The notes under the pieces: generated by a model
Databases searched by the model: none
What the model saw: only the letters and a program-made list of their open reading frames with translations
What the model was told of the DNA's origin: nothing
Part shown: positions 50,139-57,230 of the stretch, in pieces
Layout: each line of letters begins with the position of its first letter
Position numbering within the stretch: position 1 is the stretch's first letter
Program-made: the position numbers and the translations under genes
Origin: Sycon ciliatum
Lineage: Eukaryota > Porifera > Calcarea > Leucosolenida > Sycettidae
DNA: 64,000 bases
NCBI RefSeq assembly: GCF_964019385.1
Contig: NC_088643.1
Coordinates: forward strand, 17,136,873-17,200,872
Direction of reading: 5' to 3'

Positions 50139-50549
50139 TCAGCAATATACTTTTTTTACAAAATTGCGATCCTCTAGCCAGTCAGCCACTGCAGATATTG
50201 CCCGGGTAAGCGCCGTGGAGCATTCAGTAGGTAGCCAGTGGCTGAAGTACAAGCCAATATCATCCGCAAACTGTATTTTGGGCACGTCACCAGCAACCTC
50301 TGGTATACCGCGTGTGTATATACTGAACAAGATTGGTCCTAAAACGGATCCCTGCGGAACACCGCATGTGCATGCGTTACAGAGTCCGTCCTGGGTTCCA
50401 ATGCGCACTTTCTTCTTGAGCTGGTTTTTAGTTTTCTCGTTTTGAAGTTGTGTCTGGTTTCTAATGTCTTTCGATAATAGCACTTGATATGTACAGTTTA
50501 TGACCAATTTGTTCTCACGACGGAGACGAGGTACTGTGATCGCAGACAC
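50139..50549 (-). pseudogene. LINE reverse transcriptase fragment
   Basis: One open frame with CGVPQGSVLGPILFSIY and IQFADDIGLYF, the two RT palm motifs, then VADWLEDRNF. Both ends cut off. 50550-50830 holds nothing recognised. Confidence 0.82.
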
Positions 50550-50829
50550 AAATTGCTTTGGAATGCAGTAGTATTTTAGGCCCCTTTTTTCTCCGCTTTT
50601 TGCTGTTGGTCGGATTGTAACATTGTGCAGCTGCTTTTTTTTTGGGCGGTTACTGTTGCGTTTCTGTATTGTTTTCCGTTGACTTCTACCTCAGCGTGAA
50701 TTACTCATGCGCACTTTACACTTTTCAAGTAATCGTCTAGGGATTGAGTTGATTCTTTTACACAACCTTGATACATCTAGTATCTACCAAGTACCTAAAT
50801 ATATTATGGGGAATTGTGTGTTAATCCCT

Positions 50830-51060
50830 ACATGGCAGCTCGCGGTTTTCCTACCGACTTGAATTCTCACTTGACTGACTCACGACTGCCATCCAGAGCA
50901 TACGAGAAGTCGTCGAACCGTCCACTAGGCAAACCTGCAAGAAAGCACCACTCCCTGCTCAATACACAGTGTTTCGGGGAATTCACCCCTCATCAGTTGA
51001 GCTTGAGTAGGCTGAGGAAGATTGTGCCTGAAGAGCACCACATAAACGAGAGAGCTTGGA
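50830..51060. repeat. Ribozyme-bearing direct repeat, copy 1
   Basis: Matches 51810-52015: CTTGACTGACTCACGACTGC through AGAGCACCAC. Carries HHR-A on the minus strand. It could be the long-terminal-like repeats of a retrozyme, but the stretch between holds unrelated elements. Confidence 0.8.
50957..51002 (-). ncRNA. Hammerhead ribozyme HHR-A
   Basis: Complete type I fold: stem I GCTCAA/TTGAGC; CTGATGA; stem II GGGG/CCCC, loop TGAATT; GAA; stem III ACA/TGT (or ACAC/GTGT); cleavage after the A at 50963. All conserved core bases present. Confidence 0.88.
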
Positions 51061-51099: not shown

Positions 51100-51555
51100 C
51101 CTAGACAAAAAAAAGCATAGGGATGTTTTCTTAAAAAAAATCCTTTTTTTTAAACCTGGGATTCGAACCCGCACTATCGCGCGCCCTGCATGCAGCCCCC
51201 GATACACTTCGCATACATACTAATTCTTCCAAGTTGTTTCACATTGTGATCTTGCATTTGAAAGCCCTATTTGAATATGCATTGTGGCCAGCCATCTTTG
51301 ATGGCACGGTACGGTAGGGAATAGGTACGGGACAGGTACGATCGAGGGTAATACGACACCGTCTAGCTGCCCGCAATATTCAAATAGGGCTTTCAAACGC
51401 AAGATTAACGTGAAGCAACTTGGAAGAATGGGTATGAATGCGAAGTGTATGGGGGAATGCATGTAGGGCGATAGTGCGGGTTCGAATCCCAGGATATGCC
51501 TGAAAAAAAGGAGAATTGAAAAATTTATAACATCCTATGCTTTTTTGCCGTCAGA
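51100..51555. mobile_element. Large inverted-repeat element with tRNA-like B boxes in both arms
   Basis: Arms run from AAAAAGCATAGGGATGTT and from its inverse ACATCCTATGCTTTTT. Each arm has GGGTTCGAATCCCAGG (minus at about 51160, plus at about 51480) and CTTCCAAGTTG...GAAAGCCCTATTTGAATAT. Partial copies at 53390-53560 and 56170-56510. Confidence 0.75.
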
Positions 51556-51809: not shown

Positions 51810-52015
51810 CACCGGAGCTCGCGCTATTCCGCCGACTTTACTTGACACTTGACTGACTCACGACTGCCATCCAGAGCACACGAGAAGTCCATCGAACCTT
51901 CGACTCGGCAAACCTGCAAGAAAGCACCACTCCCTGCTCAATACACAGTGTTTCGGGGAATTCACCCCTCATCAGTTGAGCTTGAGTAGGCTGAGGAAGA
52001 TTGTGCCTGAAGAGC
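51810..52015. repeat. Ribozyme-bearing direct repeat, copy 2
   Basis: Second copy of 50830-51060; it continues into TATATAGTGCTCTCCAGGCA, a segment repeated at 52452-52495. Confidence 0.8.
51936..51981 (-). ncRNA. Hammerhead ribozyme HHR-B
   Basis: Identical in all paired and core positions to HHR-A. Confidence 0.88.
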
Positions 52016-52369: not shown

Positions 52370-52994
52370 TTAAAGCTGTGTGGACCCTGGCTAGCGCCAG
52401 ACGTTACTGAAGTAACGTCTTCTGCATAGCTACGGGAATAATTATTATTATAGTGCTCTCCAGGCACAAACATCACCAGGGATACAAACTTACAGAGACG
52501 CTCCGTTTCCAGCGCGACAAACACCTCATGAACACCAGATTACAGCGTGAGTCAGTGTCGCTCATGGAGGTGCTGAACAAGCGCTGAGGACCGCTGGCCA
52601 TTCACAACGTTGTTGCCTCCAAACCGTCTAATTCGCAAGCCCGCGCTGGGGACAACATTGTGAAGAAGAGGAACCAACCTCTTCCATGTAAAGGCTTTAC
52701 ATATGTATTATAAATACTCAATCTGCGGACAGCATGCTGTTTCGTTCTTTGTGAACTCATCAGCGCAGCACAGAGGAAATTATATTATTCCCGTAGCTAT
52801 GCAGAAGACGTTACTTCAGTAACGTCTGGCGCTAGCCAGGGTCCACACAGCTTTAATTCCCGTAGCTATGCAGAAGACGTTACTTCAGTAACGTCTGGCG
52901 CTAGCCAGGGTCCACACAGCTTTAATTCCCGTAGCTATGCAGAAGACGTTACTTCAGTAACGTCTGGCGCTAGCCAGGGTCCACACAGCTTTAA
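52370..52994. mobile_element. TTAA-type MITE with tripled right end, containing HHR-C
   Basis: TTAA then AGCTGTGTGGACCCTGGC at the left, inverse at the right. The 69-bp right end is repeated three times (TTAA at 52853, 52922, 52991). Each end holds the perfect 22-nt palindrome built from AGACGTTACT and AGTAACGTCT. Solo ends at 56573-56640 and 56883-56912. Confidence 0.82.
52723..52768 (-). ncRNA. Hammerhead ribozyme HHR-C
   Basis: Stem I CTGCG/CGCAG; CTGATGA; stem II GTTC/GAAC, loop ACAAA; GAA; stem III ACAGC/GCTGT, two-base loop; cleavage base C (GTC triplet). Complete. Confidence 0.88.
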
Positions 52995-53389
52995 TTTGGT
53001 GTTTGTTTGTGTGTTTGTTTGTTTGTGTCACGCCTGGCGCTATTTTGTATCTATCCCGTACTGTACCGTACCAGCAAAGACAGCTGGCCACAATATTTTT
53101 GTTTGTTTGTGCCATCGACATGCCTGGCGCTATCCTGTACCTGTCCCGTACCATCAAGAGTACGGTACCATCAAGTGAATGAGTATATATGCGAAGTGTA
53201 TCGGGGGAATGCATTCAGTGCAGTAACATTTTGTGTGGTTTTGTGTGCGAAGCCGAGATCCCACTAGCAGGCTGGCTGGGCCGCCTGTCGACCAGCCCGG
53301 GAATCGCATGTAGGCCGATAGCATAACGAGAGAGCTTGGAAGCTCAGGGCCCTACGCTATGCTTTTTTGCCTTGATGACCTAGACAAAA

Positions 53390-53560
53390 AAAAGCATAGG
53401 GATGTTATAAATTCTTTAAAAAAATCCTTTTTTAAAGACATAACCTGGGATTCGAACCCGCACTATCGCGCGCCCTGCATGCATCCCCCGATACACTTCG
53501 CATACATACTAATTCTTCCAAGTTGTTTCACATTGTGATCTTGCATTTTAAAGCCGTATT
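53390..53560. mobile_element. Partial copy of the inverted-repeat element
   Basis: One arm only, with the minus-strand B box (GGGATTCGAACCCGCA at about 53448). Preceded by ACGAGAGAGCTTGGAAGCTC, also found beside HHR-A and HHR-D. Confidence 0.65.
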
Positions 53561-55757
53561 TGAATTTAGAAAAGCGATCCTGTCAGCTTTTCTATTATTG
53601 TGTTCACATGGCAGAAAAAACGACACCGCTATGCTACGTAAGTTTCTACGTAAGGTGCTCGGTACTTCACTTAGGCTACGTAAGTTTCTACGTAAGGTGC
53701 TCGGTATTAGATCTACTAACGCGTGGTAGCCGCGTGCTGTGCACGTGCACGGCAGACATTGTGTTGCATGCAGTGCAGTCCGTTTTCGGATGTGCATGCG
53801 CGAGGAACTTCCTTCTTTGGAACTGCTTCTTGCATGAGCTGTTTCGGATATTTCGTGTCCTGGCTTATTTCGCTTCCGCTCTGCTGAGACCTCTTTTCAC
53901 GGAATATTACTCAATGACAGGTGAGTTGACCAGTTCCCTTTGATTCATTTGCTTGTGTTGACTCTTTCATTTACGAAAAGTGTGCTGATTTTAGGTGGAA
54001 TACAATAAAATTAATAATGGAAAAGCTGACAGGATCTCTTTTCTAAATTTAGCTTTTCTGCTGTCGAGGCCTCCTTTTACGGAATACTCAATGACAGGTG
54101 ATCTCTGAGTTGACCAGCTTCCTTCGATTCATTTTGCTTATGCTCACCCTTTCATTTACGGAAACGTGTGCTGATTTTATTCGGATTTAGATCCATTCGT
54201 TTCACCTTGCCATTGCCAACAGTGTGCGAAGAACGTGAGTTCACCTTCTTGACCGTAAGGCTTATGTTGCTGCTGAGGCTTTAAATAGATGTGTTGTCGA
54301 AATACTCATGTTCATTGTACATTGGTGCGTTACAAGTAAGGCACTGGTCATGATTGCTTCCGGCATTCCGTGCTCCGATCATAGGGTAGAATCTGAATTT
54401 TGCAGTGGCATAGCATCGTTGGCAGTTCCCAATCTGGAGGGAAAGGTTCAAAGACGCATTGGCCGAGTACTAGTATGCAAAATAAATTTGCATATCAGGG
54501 AAAATCTCCATTATGGAGAGGTTCATGCATTCAGTGACTTGTTTGCTTCATACGAAACAAGCCAATGGGTGCAGTCTCGTCTCGTGAAAATCTCGTACGA
54601 TTGGATTTGTTTACTCGAGTCTGGGCTGTTTGATTTGTGAGTAGCGCCGAGATTGCACTGCCCCAAATAAAGTTGCGTGCCGGTAGAGCAAGAATTACGA
54701 TCTGCAATCTGTTTGTAGTACCTGCAAGAATGTGCTATACATGTATCGTATTTTCTCTGTTGTTGTTTCAGTTGCCGTCATGTTGCTAAAGAAAGGTTCA
54801 GTGACTCATTTGTTTCATAAAAGACGAGTCAATAGTTTGGTCCGGCTTAGAATCTTTCGCTGTGGAAGAAATCTATTCGTGTCTCTATTGGAGAAATAAT
54901 TGTTTTCACTTGTTATAAAATAGGGTCAAGACAAACTCACAGAGCAAATGCCATCGGTCCCTTGATGTTCGTCCTAAAGAGGTTTGACTAGATATCATTC
55001 ATACTCCCCCGAAGTCGTGTAACATTTTACTATTATGGAATGCCTTGTTTATCTCTCAGTACCTAAAACCATAATATATCCTTGCCCCTTATATCCTCAG
55101 GATCAGTGTAGTTGTTGGAACGAGGTGTCGGACTCAGCGATGTATTTGTTTACATTTTAATGCATGTTTATTGTTCCTACTTTGCTGTGTTGTTTTAGAC
55201 AATCGTGGACACTGAACTGCTTCCAAAAGTGTTATCGACATCAACAGGATTACGATTTCACTACAATATGATGCCGGATGACCTTATCACGACAACCCAT
55301 GACTACAATTATAAACACAGAATCAACAAAAACATCTGCGGCACACACCTGGTTACAATTCTCAAGTAAATGTGATTTAGGGTGTGGACATCTGAATTTT
55401 CTGAAAGACAAGACAATTTTATGACAGTCATGAAATTCGGCAAAATCCACAGAATGACTTGCGTATAAAAAAAGTATCACCGCCACGACCCATATGATTC
55501 CCCTGCAGAAGAACATGAATACATGTATGCAAGACTAGTTCCATTTTCTGCAAGAAAAGGCTTGCACATCAATGCGTGTAAAACGGTATTGAATTTGATA
55601 TGATACACATAGGGGCTCCCGTAAGAAGAACATAGGTCTGTGGGAAACACCCTAGTAAAATAAATAAAATAATAATAACAACATGCAGAGGCGCTACATG
55701 TAGGCCATCATTAGGGCATTCCATTGGTTACACAATTATATCCTTTAGCAAAAAAAA
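53561..55757. other. Unassigned region with a short duplication
   Basis: A segment of about 130 bp (GGAATACTCAATGACAGGTG and the following) occurs at about 53875-54000 and 54058-54190; a 41-bp repeat lies at 53634-53709. A 110-codon ORF at 54308-54640 and an 88-codon minus ORF at 55250-55516 show no motif. I see nothing else. Confidence 0.4.
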
Positions 55758-55765
55758 CAAAAGAA

Positions 55766-56192
55766 ATTATAACAATAAAAACTGCTTTATGGCAGTTTTC
55801 TAAAAAAAGTTATTGTGTTCTAGTCCATGGACCTCGTCTAAAAAGTAAGAAATTAACGAAATGTGATAGCCGAAAATTAAAATTTCACACAAAACCTCAC
55901 AATAATCACACACAGGATGCGAGACGACCTTTTCCCCTCGTGGTCCTCTTTCATATGCAAGCATGTTGGCGCAGTACATGTACTTGTACAAGTACAAGTG
56001 TCGGAATAAACAAGTGTTGAAAGCCGTACTATTAGATCTTCAAGTGTCGTGATTATTGTGAGGTTTTGTGTGAAATTTTAATTTTCGGCTATCACATTTC
56101 GTTAATTTCTTACTTTTTAGACGAGGTCCATGGACTAGAACACAATAACTTTTTTTAGAAAACTGCCATAAAGCAGTTTTTATTGTTATAAT
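55766..56192. mobile_element. Fold-back element, about 150-bp near-perfect arms
   Basis: Arms 55766-55918 and 56045-56192 are inverse copies (ATTATAACAATAAAAACTGC ...). The central 125 bp contain TACATGTACTTGTACAAGTA. The right arm joins a partial copy of the inverted-repeat element. Confidence 0.88.
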
Positions 56193-56673
56193 ATGCATTG
56201 TGGCCAGCCATCTTTGATGGCACGGTACGGTAGGGGATAGGAACGGGACAGGTACTATCGAGGGTAATACGACACCGTCTCCCGTACCGTACAGTACCAT
56301 CAAACACAGCTGGCCACATACAGGTGCCCGCAATATTCAAATAGGGCTTTCAAACGCAAGATAATAACATGAAGCAACTTGGAAGAATGGGTATGAATGC
56401 GAAGTGTATGGGGGAATGCATGTAGGGCGATAGTGCGGGTTCGAATCCCAGGATATGCCAGAAAAAAAATAGGAGAATTCAAAAAATTATAACATCCTAT
56501 GCTTTTTTTGCCGTCAGATACGGATAGCGCCAGGCGTGACACAAACAAACACACAAACAAACACCAAATTAAAGCTGTGTGGACCCTGGCTAGCGCCAGA
56601 CGTTACTGAAGTAACGTCTTCTGCATAGCTACGGGAATAATTATAACATATATACAGTCATGTAGATGTATAG

Positions 56674-56704
56674 CAGGGAGTCATATTATGTAAACGACTC
56701 CCTG
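56674..56704. mobile_element. Third CAGGGAGTC mini-palindrome
   Basis: CAGGGAGTCATATTATG then TAAACGACTCCCTG; same ends as the 38-bp palindrome at 26442. Confidence 0.6.
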
Positions 56705-57028
56705 CTGTATGGGGAGATTTAAATGCAATCAGAATGGATGTTAGTTGTCGTCAGTATAATAATAATAAGAAGAAGAAGAACGCCCGTGATCGGCAGAGTC
56801 AGCGCCGGTCCCAGGAAACGTCAGGACAGACATCTCGTCGACTCCAGAACGCCCGCGATCGGCAGAGTCAGCGCCGATCCAATTGCTATGCAGAAGACGT
56901 TACTTCAGTAACTCATTGAAACGTTTTTGCAATACAATAATGTAGCTAACAACATGCACGATGAGCTAGGCAACAAAGCATAGCGCAGGGCCCTGAGCTT
57001 CCAAGCTCTCTCGTTATAAATACCCAAT

Positions 57029-57076
57029 GCTGTAGACAGCAAGCTGTTTCGGCCATAAAGGCCTCATCAGTACAGC
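57029..57076 (-). ncRNA. Hammerhead ribozyme HHR-D
   Basis: Stem I GCTGTA/TACAGC; CTGATGA; stem II GGCC/GGCC, loop TTTAT; GAA; stem III ACAGC/GCTGT, loop TT; cleavage base C. Complete. Downstream TTATAACGAGAGAGCTTGG links it to the flank of HHR-A. Confidence 0.9.
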
Positions 57077-57230
57077 TACGAGCTAAAAAGGCCGAGCTAC
57101 CAGCCATGGTGCAAAGGAGGCACCACAGACATTAAGGTAGCTCGTTGCTCTAGCGCCAGAGTGCTCAAACTACAAAATGTAGCGGGCATTGCGCGATGCA
57201 GCAGCACTAGAGTATAAATGTAATAACTAA

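Follow-up and report, generated by a model that had tools for sequence, protein, structure and literature searches.

Circular retrozyme RNA has been shown for animals other than the one studied here, and in the coral Acropora millepora the retrozyme repeats are 220-240 bp (Cervera and de la Pena 2020, PMC7229834). PAc, a Penelope-like element (PLE), initiates reverse transcription internally, and PAc mutants of the hammerhead ribozyme (HHR) still insert in vitro (Frangieh et al. 2024, PMC11167929). PLEs make target duplications of 8-10 bp, prefer AT-rich targets, and have been described in a head-to-head layout (PMC3846280). Here, we analyze two predicted hammerheads, HHR-C and HHR-D, from a 64,000-nucleotide stretch of the Sycon ciliatum genome (C1:17136873-17200872, hereafter the window), along with their relatives across the 538 Mb of genome that we searched. 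What is new here is a fixed putative start of complementary DNA (cDNA) and a box pair that retrozymes have in common with PLEs. We think that the retrozymes are probably satellites of hammerhead-bearing PLEs, that they use the PLE initiation signal, and that their hammerheads serve as processing ribozymes. Below, C, C', and D are retrozyme families, P is a PLE family and E a putative one, and L-numbers are genome loci.

Two hammerheads of one class

We scanned both strands of the window for CTGANGA, a stem II of at least 3 pairs, GAAA, a stem III of at least 4 pairs, UH, and a stem I of at least 4 pairs. Exactly two sites fit, both on the minus strand (Table 1); a first-pass annotation had placed hammerheads at the same positions and had given the same GUC cut site. 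A looser pattern, CTGATGA..GAAA, has 11 matches in the window versus 1.14 expected. HHR-C and HHR-D have their core, stem III, and the tail ATTGRGTAT in common, and they differ in stem I (CUGCG/CGCAG in HHR-C, GCUGUA/UACAGC in HHR-D) and stem II (GUUC/GAAC and GGCC/GGCC). These stems are as first annotated, and the differences do compensate: 9 of 32 paired columns changed without a broken pair (simulated P of no broken pair = 2.5e-5), and two pairs in each of the two stems changed on both sides. HHR-C and HHR-D are predicted type I hammerheads that would cut after GUC; they represent two families within one hammerhead class.

Other parts of that annotation need revision. A stem III of 5 bp would require a 2-nt loop, and the feasible monomer form has four pairs (A-U, C-G, A-U, G-C) closed by CAUG or CUUG. 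Because CAGCATGCTG is a palindrome, a longer stem III would be possible in a dimer only. The two sites do share stem III and a flank, but the supposed flank, ATAAATAC/CAAT, consists of the tail of the retrozyme, ATTGRGTAT, together with target DNA that is rich in TA. When we searched the window with Rfam, no family reached its gathering score for either hammerhead: the scores were 26.2 bits for HHR-C (Hammerhead_HH9, gathering score 52) and 25.9 bits for HHR-D (Hammerhead_3, 48.5). In isolated 62-63-mers, the hammerhead fold lies above the predicted minimum by 3.8 (C) and 2.0 (D) kcal/mol.

The window also contains two hammerhead cores, HHR-A and HHR-B, at 50972-50996 and 51951-51975 (minus strand). 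These form a separate type I class, as had been proposed, in which stem III is very short and the cut site is GUA. They belong to a direct repeat whose copies are 979 bp apart and match at 97% over 132 nt.

Table 1. Coordinates of the hammerheads and retrozyme copies in the window
Feature	Position	Strand	Detail	Basis
HHR-C, predicted type I hammerhead	52723..52768	-	cut between 52728 and 52727, after GUC	pattern scan
HHR-D, predicted type I hammerhead	57029..57076	-	cut between 57035 and 57034, after GUC	pattern scan
Family C retrozyme copy, 5'-truncated	52714..52780	-	~67 bp; matches monomer 176-228 + 1-14	
UAU at C 3' junction, inferred cDNA start	52714..52716	-		family C junction statistics
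Family D retrozyme copy, 5'-truncated	57020..57212	-	~193 bp; monomer 60-237 + 1-15	identical copy L031
UAU at D 3' junction, inferred cDNA start	57020..57022	-		family D junction statistics
Family D second box, m2	57157..57190	-	inner stem CTACA/TGTAG, GAGCACTC	sequence reading

Genome copies and covariation

The exact 36-nt core of C has 272 copies in the genome and the exact D core has 334, while a generic C/D pattern has 4242; the reversed controls have none in each case. The copies are either solitary or tandem with a constant period of 228 (C), 226 (C'), or 237 nt (D), with one hammerhead per unit. Among the 100 places listed for the generic pattern, on which our array statistics rest, we counted 72 arrays, 53 of which have a single unit. 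These monomer lengths fall within the 150-450 bp given for animal retrozymes. The GC content is 0.487 (C), 0.482 (C'), and 0.532 (D), as compared to less than 50% for animal retrozymes. The monomers are non-coding: over three laps and six frames, the longest stop-free runs are 75, 83, and 54 amino acids. Judging from their sequences, HHR-C and HHR-D belong to the animal-type non-LTR (non-long terminal repeat) retrozymes, which are a known kind of element.

The first-pass annotation had argued from covariation that the fold is selected. Across six family sequences (C, C', D, a variant with GGGG/CCCC in stem II, another D, and another C'), 96.9% of cells pair, versus 27-44% in slid controls, and two-sided changes affect 5 of the 16 pairs (3 of 4 in stem II and 2 of 5 in stem I). 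One of the five measures was unremarkable (further pair types, 61 of 500 shuffles), and the basal pair of stem I is a G.G mismatch in the GGGG/CCCC variant. Stem III is constant across the six sequences, so it gives no information about covariation. For stems I and II, then, the argument holds, and the family comparison supports a hammerhead fold that is maintained by compensation. Genome copies, which the annotation had proposed as the check, are less uniform: the families compensate, yet about a dozen of 32 distinct C-family rows have one-sided stem changes (some still G-U), of the kind that the annotation had named as counting against its reading, and we saw, by eye, no stem change in those rows that was restored by its partner. 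One-sided changes are expected of dead insertions, so selection would act on the source elements rather than on every copy.

Where copies begin and end

HHR-C and HHR-D are each the 3' part of a truncated retrozyme copy. Most of the copies that we sampled end at GTA(T), 12-15 nt beyond the cut, and lie in DNA that is rich in TA. For family C, we selected 30 places by the core alone, and 23 of these stop at nt 12-14 past the cut site; the others stop at 4, 4, 5, 8, 9, and, in two cases (the copy in the window and the internal monomer L063), 16. For family D, 20 places were hand-picked from 100 listed matches to the core. Four of these are internal monomers, 12 of the 16 others stop at nt 13-15, and the rest stop at nt 11, 12, 17, and 58.

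Direct repeats of at least 7 nt, longer than the 4 bp that target duplications of animal retrozymes exceed, surround 15 of 25 C copies, versus 2.7% with shuffled flanks. Eleven of these repeats are at least 9 nt; TA is the usual start, and some are located within simple repeats. The 5' ends occur all around the monomer and do not peak at the cut site: 1 of 78 falls no more than one nt away from it, versus 1.02 expected. A linear self-cleaved monomer that was primed at the fixed junction would be exhausted after 14-15 nt, so the longer copies were presumably templated by a circle or an uncut multimer. We rejected cleaved linear RNA as the main template; six insertions that consist of the tail alone (10-12 nt) and a seventh at the edge of a locus would fit it (the 10-nt insertions are no longer than our search word).

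The D copy in the window, with its flank (57000-57140), recurs about 13.5 kb away (C1:17207361-17207501, 100% over 141 nt), which is a local duplication. Separately, at L082 (~1265-1550), D and C retrozymes are joined head-to-head without a gap and with their tails outward. This is the only such retrozyme fusion that we saw, and perhaps it is one insertion that was primed on both strands.

A box pair common to retrozymes and Penelope-like elements

Downstream of the hammerhead, retrozymes C and D have two boxes of the form GCUC-stem-UU-GAGCAC, in the order HHR, GAGTAT or GGGTAT, box m1, box m2. (Both window copies have lost m1.) To find boxes regardless of their inner stem, we used the pattern GCTC(9-17)T(T/C)GAGC(A/T)C. 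It matches retrozymes C and D as well as PLE contexts in this genome, where the boxes lie between the hammerhead and the open reading frame (ORF): E-like ORFs are upstream at L026, L052, and L075, and ORF starts of the form MDxPxR are found at L052, L065, L081, and L133. L023 and L039 are further PLE contexts with a match. In 5 of the 7 contexts displayed, the box is preceded, at a distance of 77-84 nt, by a hammerhead core. The spacing from m1 to m2 is 67 nt in C, 65 in D, 60 in E, and 65 in L052.

The box statistics rest on 14 hand-chosen instances. Three inner pairs are kept in 12 of them, the exceptions being D m1 and L039, and none of 100000 shuffles was as good; of the 11 distinct boxes, 9 keep all three, which shuffles reached once. 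RNAalifold reported no structure for the raw box alignment, in which MAFFT had misplaced the variable stems (by eye), so pairs were scored in fixed-length excerpts instead. In 12 such excerpts, 95% of cells pair (17-44% when slid), 18 cells of the three inner pairs changed on both sides, and the covariation score is 0.491, versus 0.128 when shuffled. Folding yields the hairpin for C m1, C m2, E m1, L026, and L075 and a variant of it for D m1; it is absent for L034. The boxes also resemble each other in sequence: E m2 and D m1 have ACGCTCCTC...TTGTTGAGCACTCTC in common (score 36, versus 27 for the best of 3000 shuffles), and E m2 resembles C (P = 0.001).

Element E, a putative PLE, has this arrangement and the PLE layout: tandem copies, a hammerhead near the start of the ORF, and an optional 3' tail. 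Four tandem copies lie about 2590 bp apart on C11, with open frames of 292, 758, 406, and 758 amino acids; the two longest frames are at C11:4087046 and C11:4092225. The order at the E-E junction (L133) is HHR, GAGTGTAT, box m1, ~60 nt, CTATTGTTCTAT, box m2, and the next ORF. Elsewhere, E copies have two 3' ends, beside TA tracts: three end at GAGTGTAT (L022, L025, L126) and four near CTATTGT(TC) (L009, L022, L035, L040, of which L035 differs). Both end points are directly 5' of a box. The E-like group comprises at least 150 scored relatives of the C terminus of E, and six members (L026, L034, L038, L043, L052, L075) have a hammerhead core in their 3' region. Element E contains GLYRDDGLA, which by eye we take to be a reverse transcriptase (RT) motif. 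A relative in L034 has a GIY-YIG score of 15.3 bits (cut-off 22.6). Aligning E with L103 by hhalign lands on the GIY-YIG domain of L103, but weakly (E 0.048, probability 1.1%). The predicted structure of E, with a mean pLDDT of 34, was not of usable quality, and sequence searches of the PDB gave no useful match. L103 and L104 are themselves Penelope-like (GIY-YIG at 24.5 bits in L103; RT motif by eye). At L038 (minus strand), a PLE 3' region runs on into the final 33 nt of a D retrozyme; the two have the same sense and no TA tract separates them, so that the fusion is possibly a template switch between the two RNAs.

Another PLE family, P, has 686 exact tails and an RVT_1 score of 26.1 bits, which is below the cut-off of 29.6. 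P shares TA targets and TAT ends with the retrozymes. No box was apparent to us in the P tail, and P insertions are head-to-head; for these two reasons we rejected P as the retrozymes' partner and prefer E-like families. At 7 of 8 loci that we examined, which were chosen for their spacing, P forms head-to-head pairs. At L125-L130 and L132, inverted P pairs are joined within a few nt, with their tails outward in TA tracts, and each arm has either 3' end.

Proposed mechanism and alternatives

We suggest that tandem retrozyme copies are transcribed and that the hammerheads cut the transcript into monomers, which would be ligated into circles. A Penelope-like RT would then bind the circle via the hairpin boxes m1 and m2 beside the hammerhead and nick TA-rich DNA. 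The TA 3' end would prime cDNA at UAU, at the junction that we see 12-15 nt beyond the cut. Synthesis would proceed around the template and stop variably, which would leave the products that we observe: 5'-truncated copies or arrays between short duplications.

Several observations weigh against making the retrozymes PLE satellites in this way. Pfam finds neither RT nor GIY-YIG in element E, and the typing of E as a PLE, which draws on its motif, its layout, and low profile scores, is weak. Adding the stemless L012, the window match at 51164 (minus strand), and E m2 lowers the inner stem to 12 of 17 boxes, and two of the five shuffle measures for boxes were unremarkable. The resemblance of E m1 to D is not significant (P = 0.18) and that to C is weak (P = 0.026, or 0.0012 under other scores). 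Among 100 listed tails of family P, head-to-head pairs no more than 1.2 kb apart occur at 27 places, versus none in 72 retrozyme arrays. The 5' ends are not uniform (Kolmogorov-Smirnov P = 0.003), with 16 of 78 at positions 1-19 versus 6.4 expected. Uncut multimers may be the templates, and TA tracts are targets for other repeats too. Finally, neighboring copies are oriented tail-tail in 13 cases, head-tail in 16, and head-head in 6 (by eye), as nested insertion would give, so we dropped tail-to-tail pairs as proof of joint integration.

What else could explain the boxes and junctions? A retrotransposon of the LINE (long interspersed nuclear element) type might recognize the retrozyme tail, with the boxes inherited for some other reason. 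The insertions do look LINE-like, being 5'-truncated, flanked by duplications, and free of head-to-head pairs, and the window has an RT fragment that by eye is LINE-like (RVT_1 at 33.8 bits, 50139-50690, minus strand). But PLEs likewise give such duplications in AT-rich targets (PMC3846280), the boxes are located at PLE 3' ends, and no LINE with a retrozyme tail turned up, though we made no genome-wide search for LINEs. We consider this explanation unlikely. It seems just as unlikely that PLEs and retrozymes share the GCTC...GAGCAC box as a promoter or as a signal for processing instead of as a site for RT. Retrozymes too require a promoter, and the PLE box lies between the hammerhead and the start of the ORF, where a pLTR (pseudo-LTR) promoter could sit; against this, the inner stems of the boxes covary as in RNA, and cDNA ends a few nt 5' of each E box and of m1 in C and D.

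We give little credence to a reading of the repeats as ordinary satellites that unequal exchange has spread and whose hammerheads are relics. Tandem arrays with a constant period do exist, but the C places selected by core hold, for the most part, truncated copies that are dispersed, share one 3' end, and are flanked by target duplications, and the stems covary between families. Least credible of all is that both sites are chance folds. Although the Rfam scores are under gathering and the isolated minimum-energy fold differs, there are hundreds of exact core copies, none in the controls, and two-sided changes between families.

If PLE machinery does move the retrozymes, then the question of their mover is answered, and there would be a purpose for self-cleavage and circle formation. 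Because the enzyme would start internally, 5' of a box that the template has to retain, a circle or an uncut multimer would still be copyable after self-cleavage, which would give the ribozyme and circularization a direct role in transposition. We lean, with rather less assurance, towards extending this to animal non-LTR retrozymes in general: they may be PLE satellites, consisting of a PLE hammerhead and paired RT-initiation boxes closed into a circle. The box pair is also a candidate RNA element for template recognition by PLEs. In the titles and abstract openings of the open-access papers that we searched, a set that does not include Cervera and de la Pena 2014 or Craig et al. 2021, we found no report of an integration signal of retrozymes or of a box pair that is shared with PLEs.

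Other features

The window contains an inverted repeat at 55757-56201, whose 153-nt arms are 97% complementary and 139 nt apart. Repeats at 51153-51276, 53442-53565, and 56365-56468 contain GGTTCGAATCC, which by eye resembles the B box of transfer RNA (tRNA) genes. ARAGORN found no tRNA in these repeats, and they are possibly a SINE (short interspersed nuclear element). Elsewhere in the assembly, C291:5914-6141 matches nearly the whole GIY-YIG profile within a frame of 652 amino acids; this is possibly a bacterial contig.

Comparison with known systems

Families C and D resemble the animal non-LTR retrozymes (PMC7229834) in their type I hammerhead, tandem repeats, lack of coding capacity, and duplications of more than 4 bp. 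They differ in that D has 53% GC and in their fixed 3' junction and PLE-like boxes, neither of which appears in the available portions of that paper. Plant LTR retrozymes (PMC4918200, PMC7761336) are also processed by hammerheads and non-autonomous, and circular RNA is a feature of the plant elements; these elements differ by having a type III hammerhead, LTRs, a primer binding site, and 4-bp duplications (PMC7761336). PLEs have an ORF with RT and GIY-YIG, and the C and D retrozymes have no ORF. PAc shares several features with what we describe (PMC11167929): a hammerhead upstream of two adjacent internal RT starts, an AT-rich target, tandem copies, and, from one end to the other, a tail that is optional. 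Its reverse transcription begins within the ORF, in an AC-rich stem loop, and the retrozymes lack an ORF. The two 3' ends of element E resemble the two-start PLE tail (PMC11167929).

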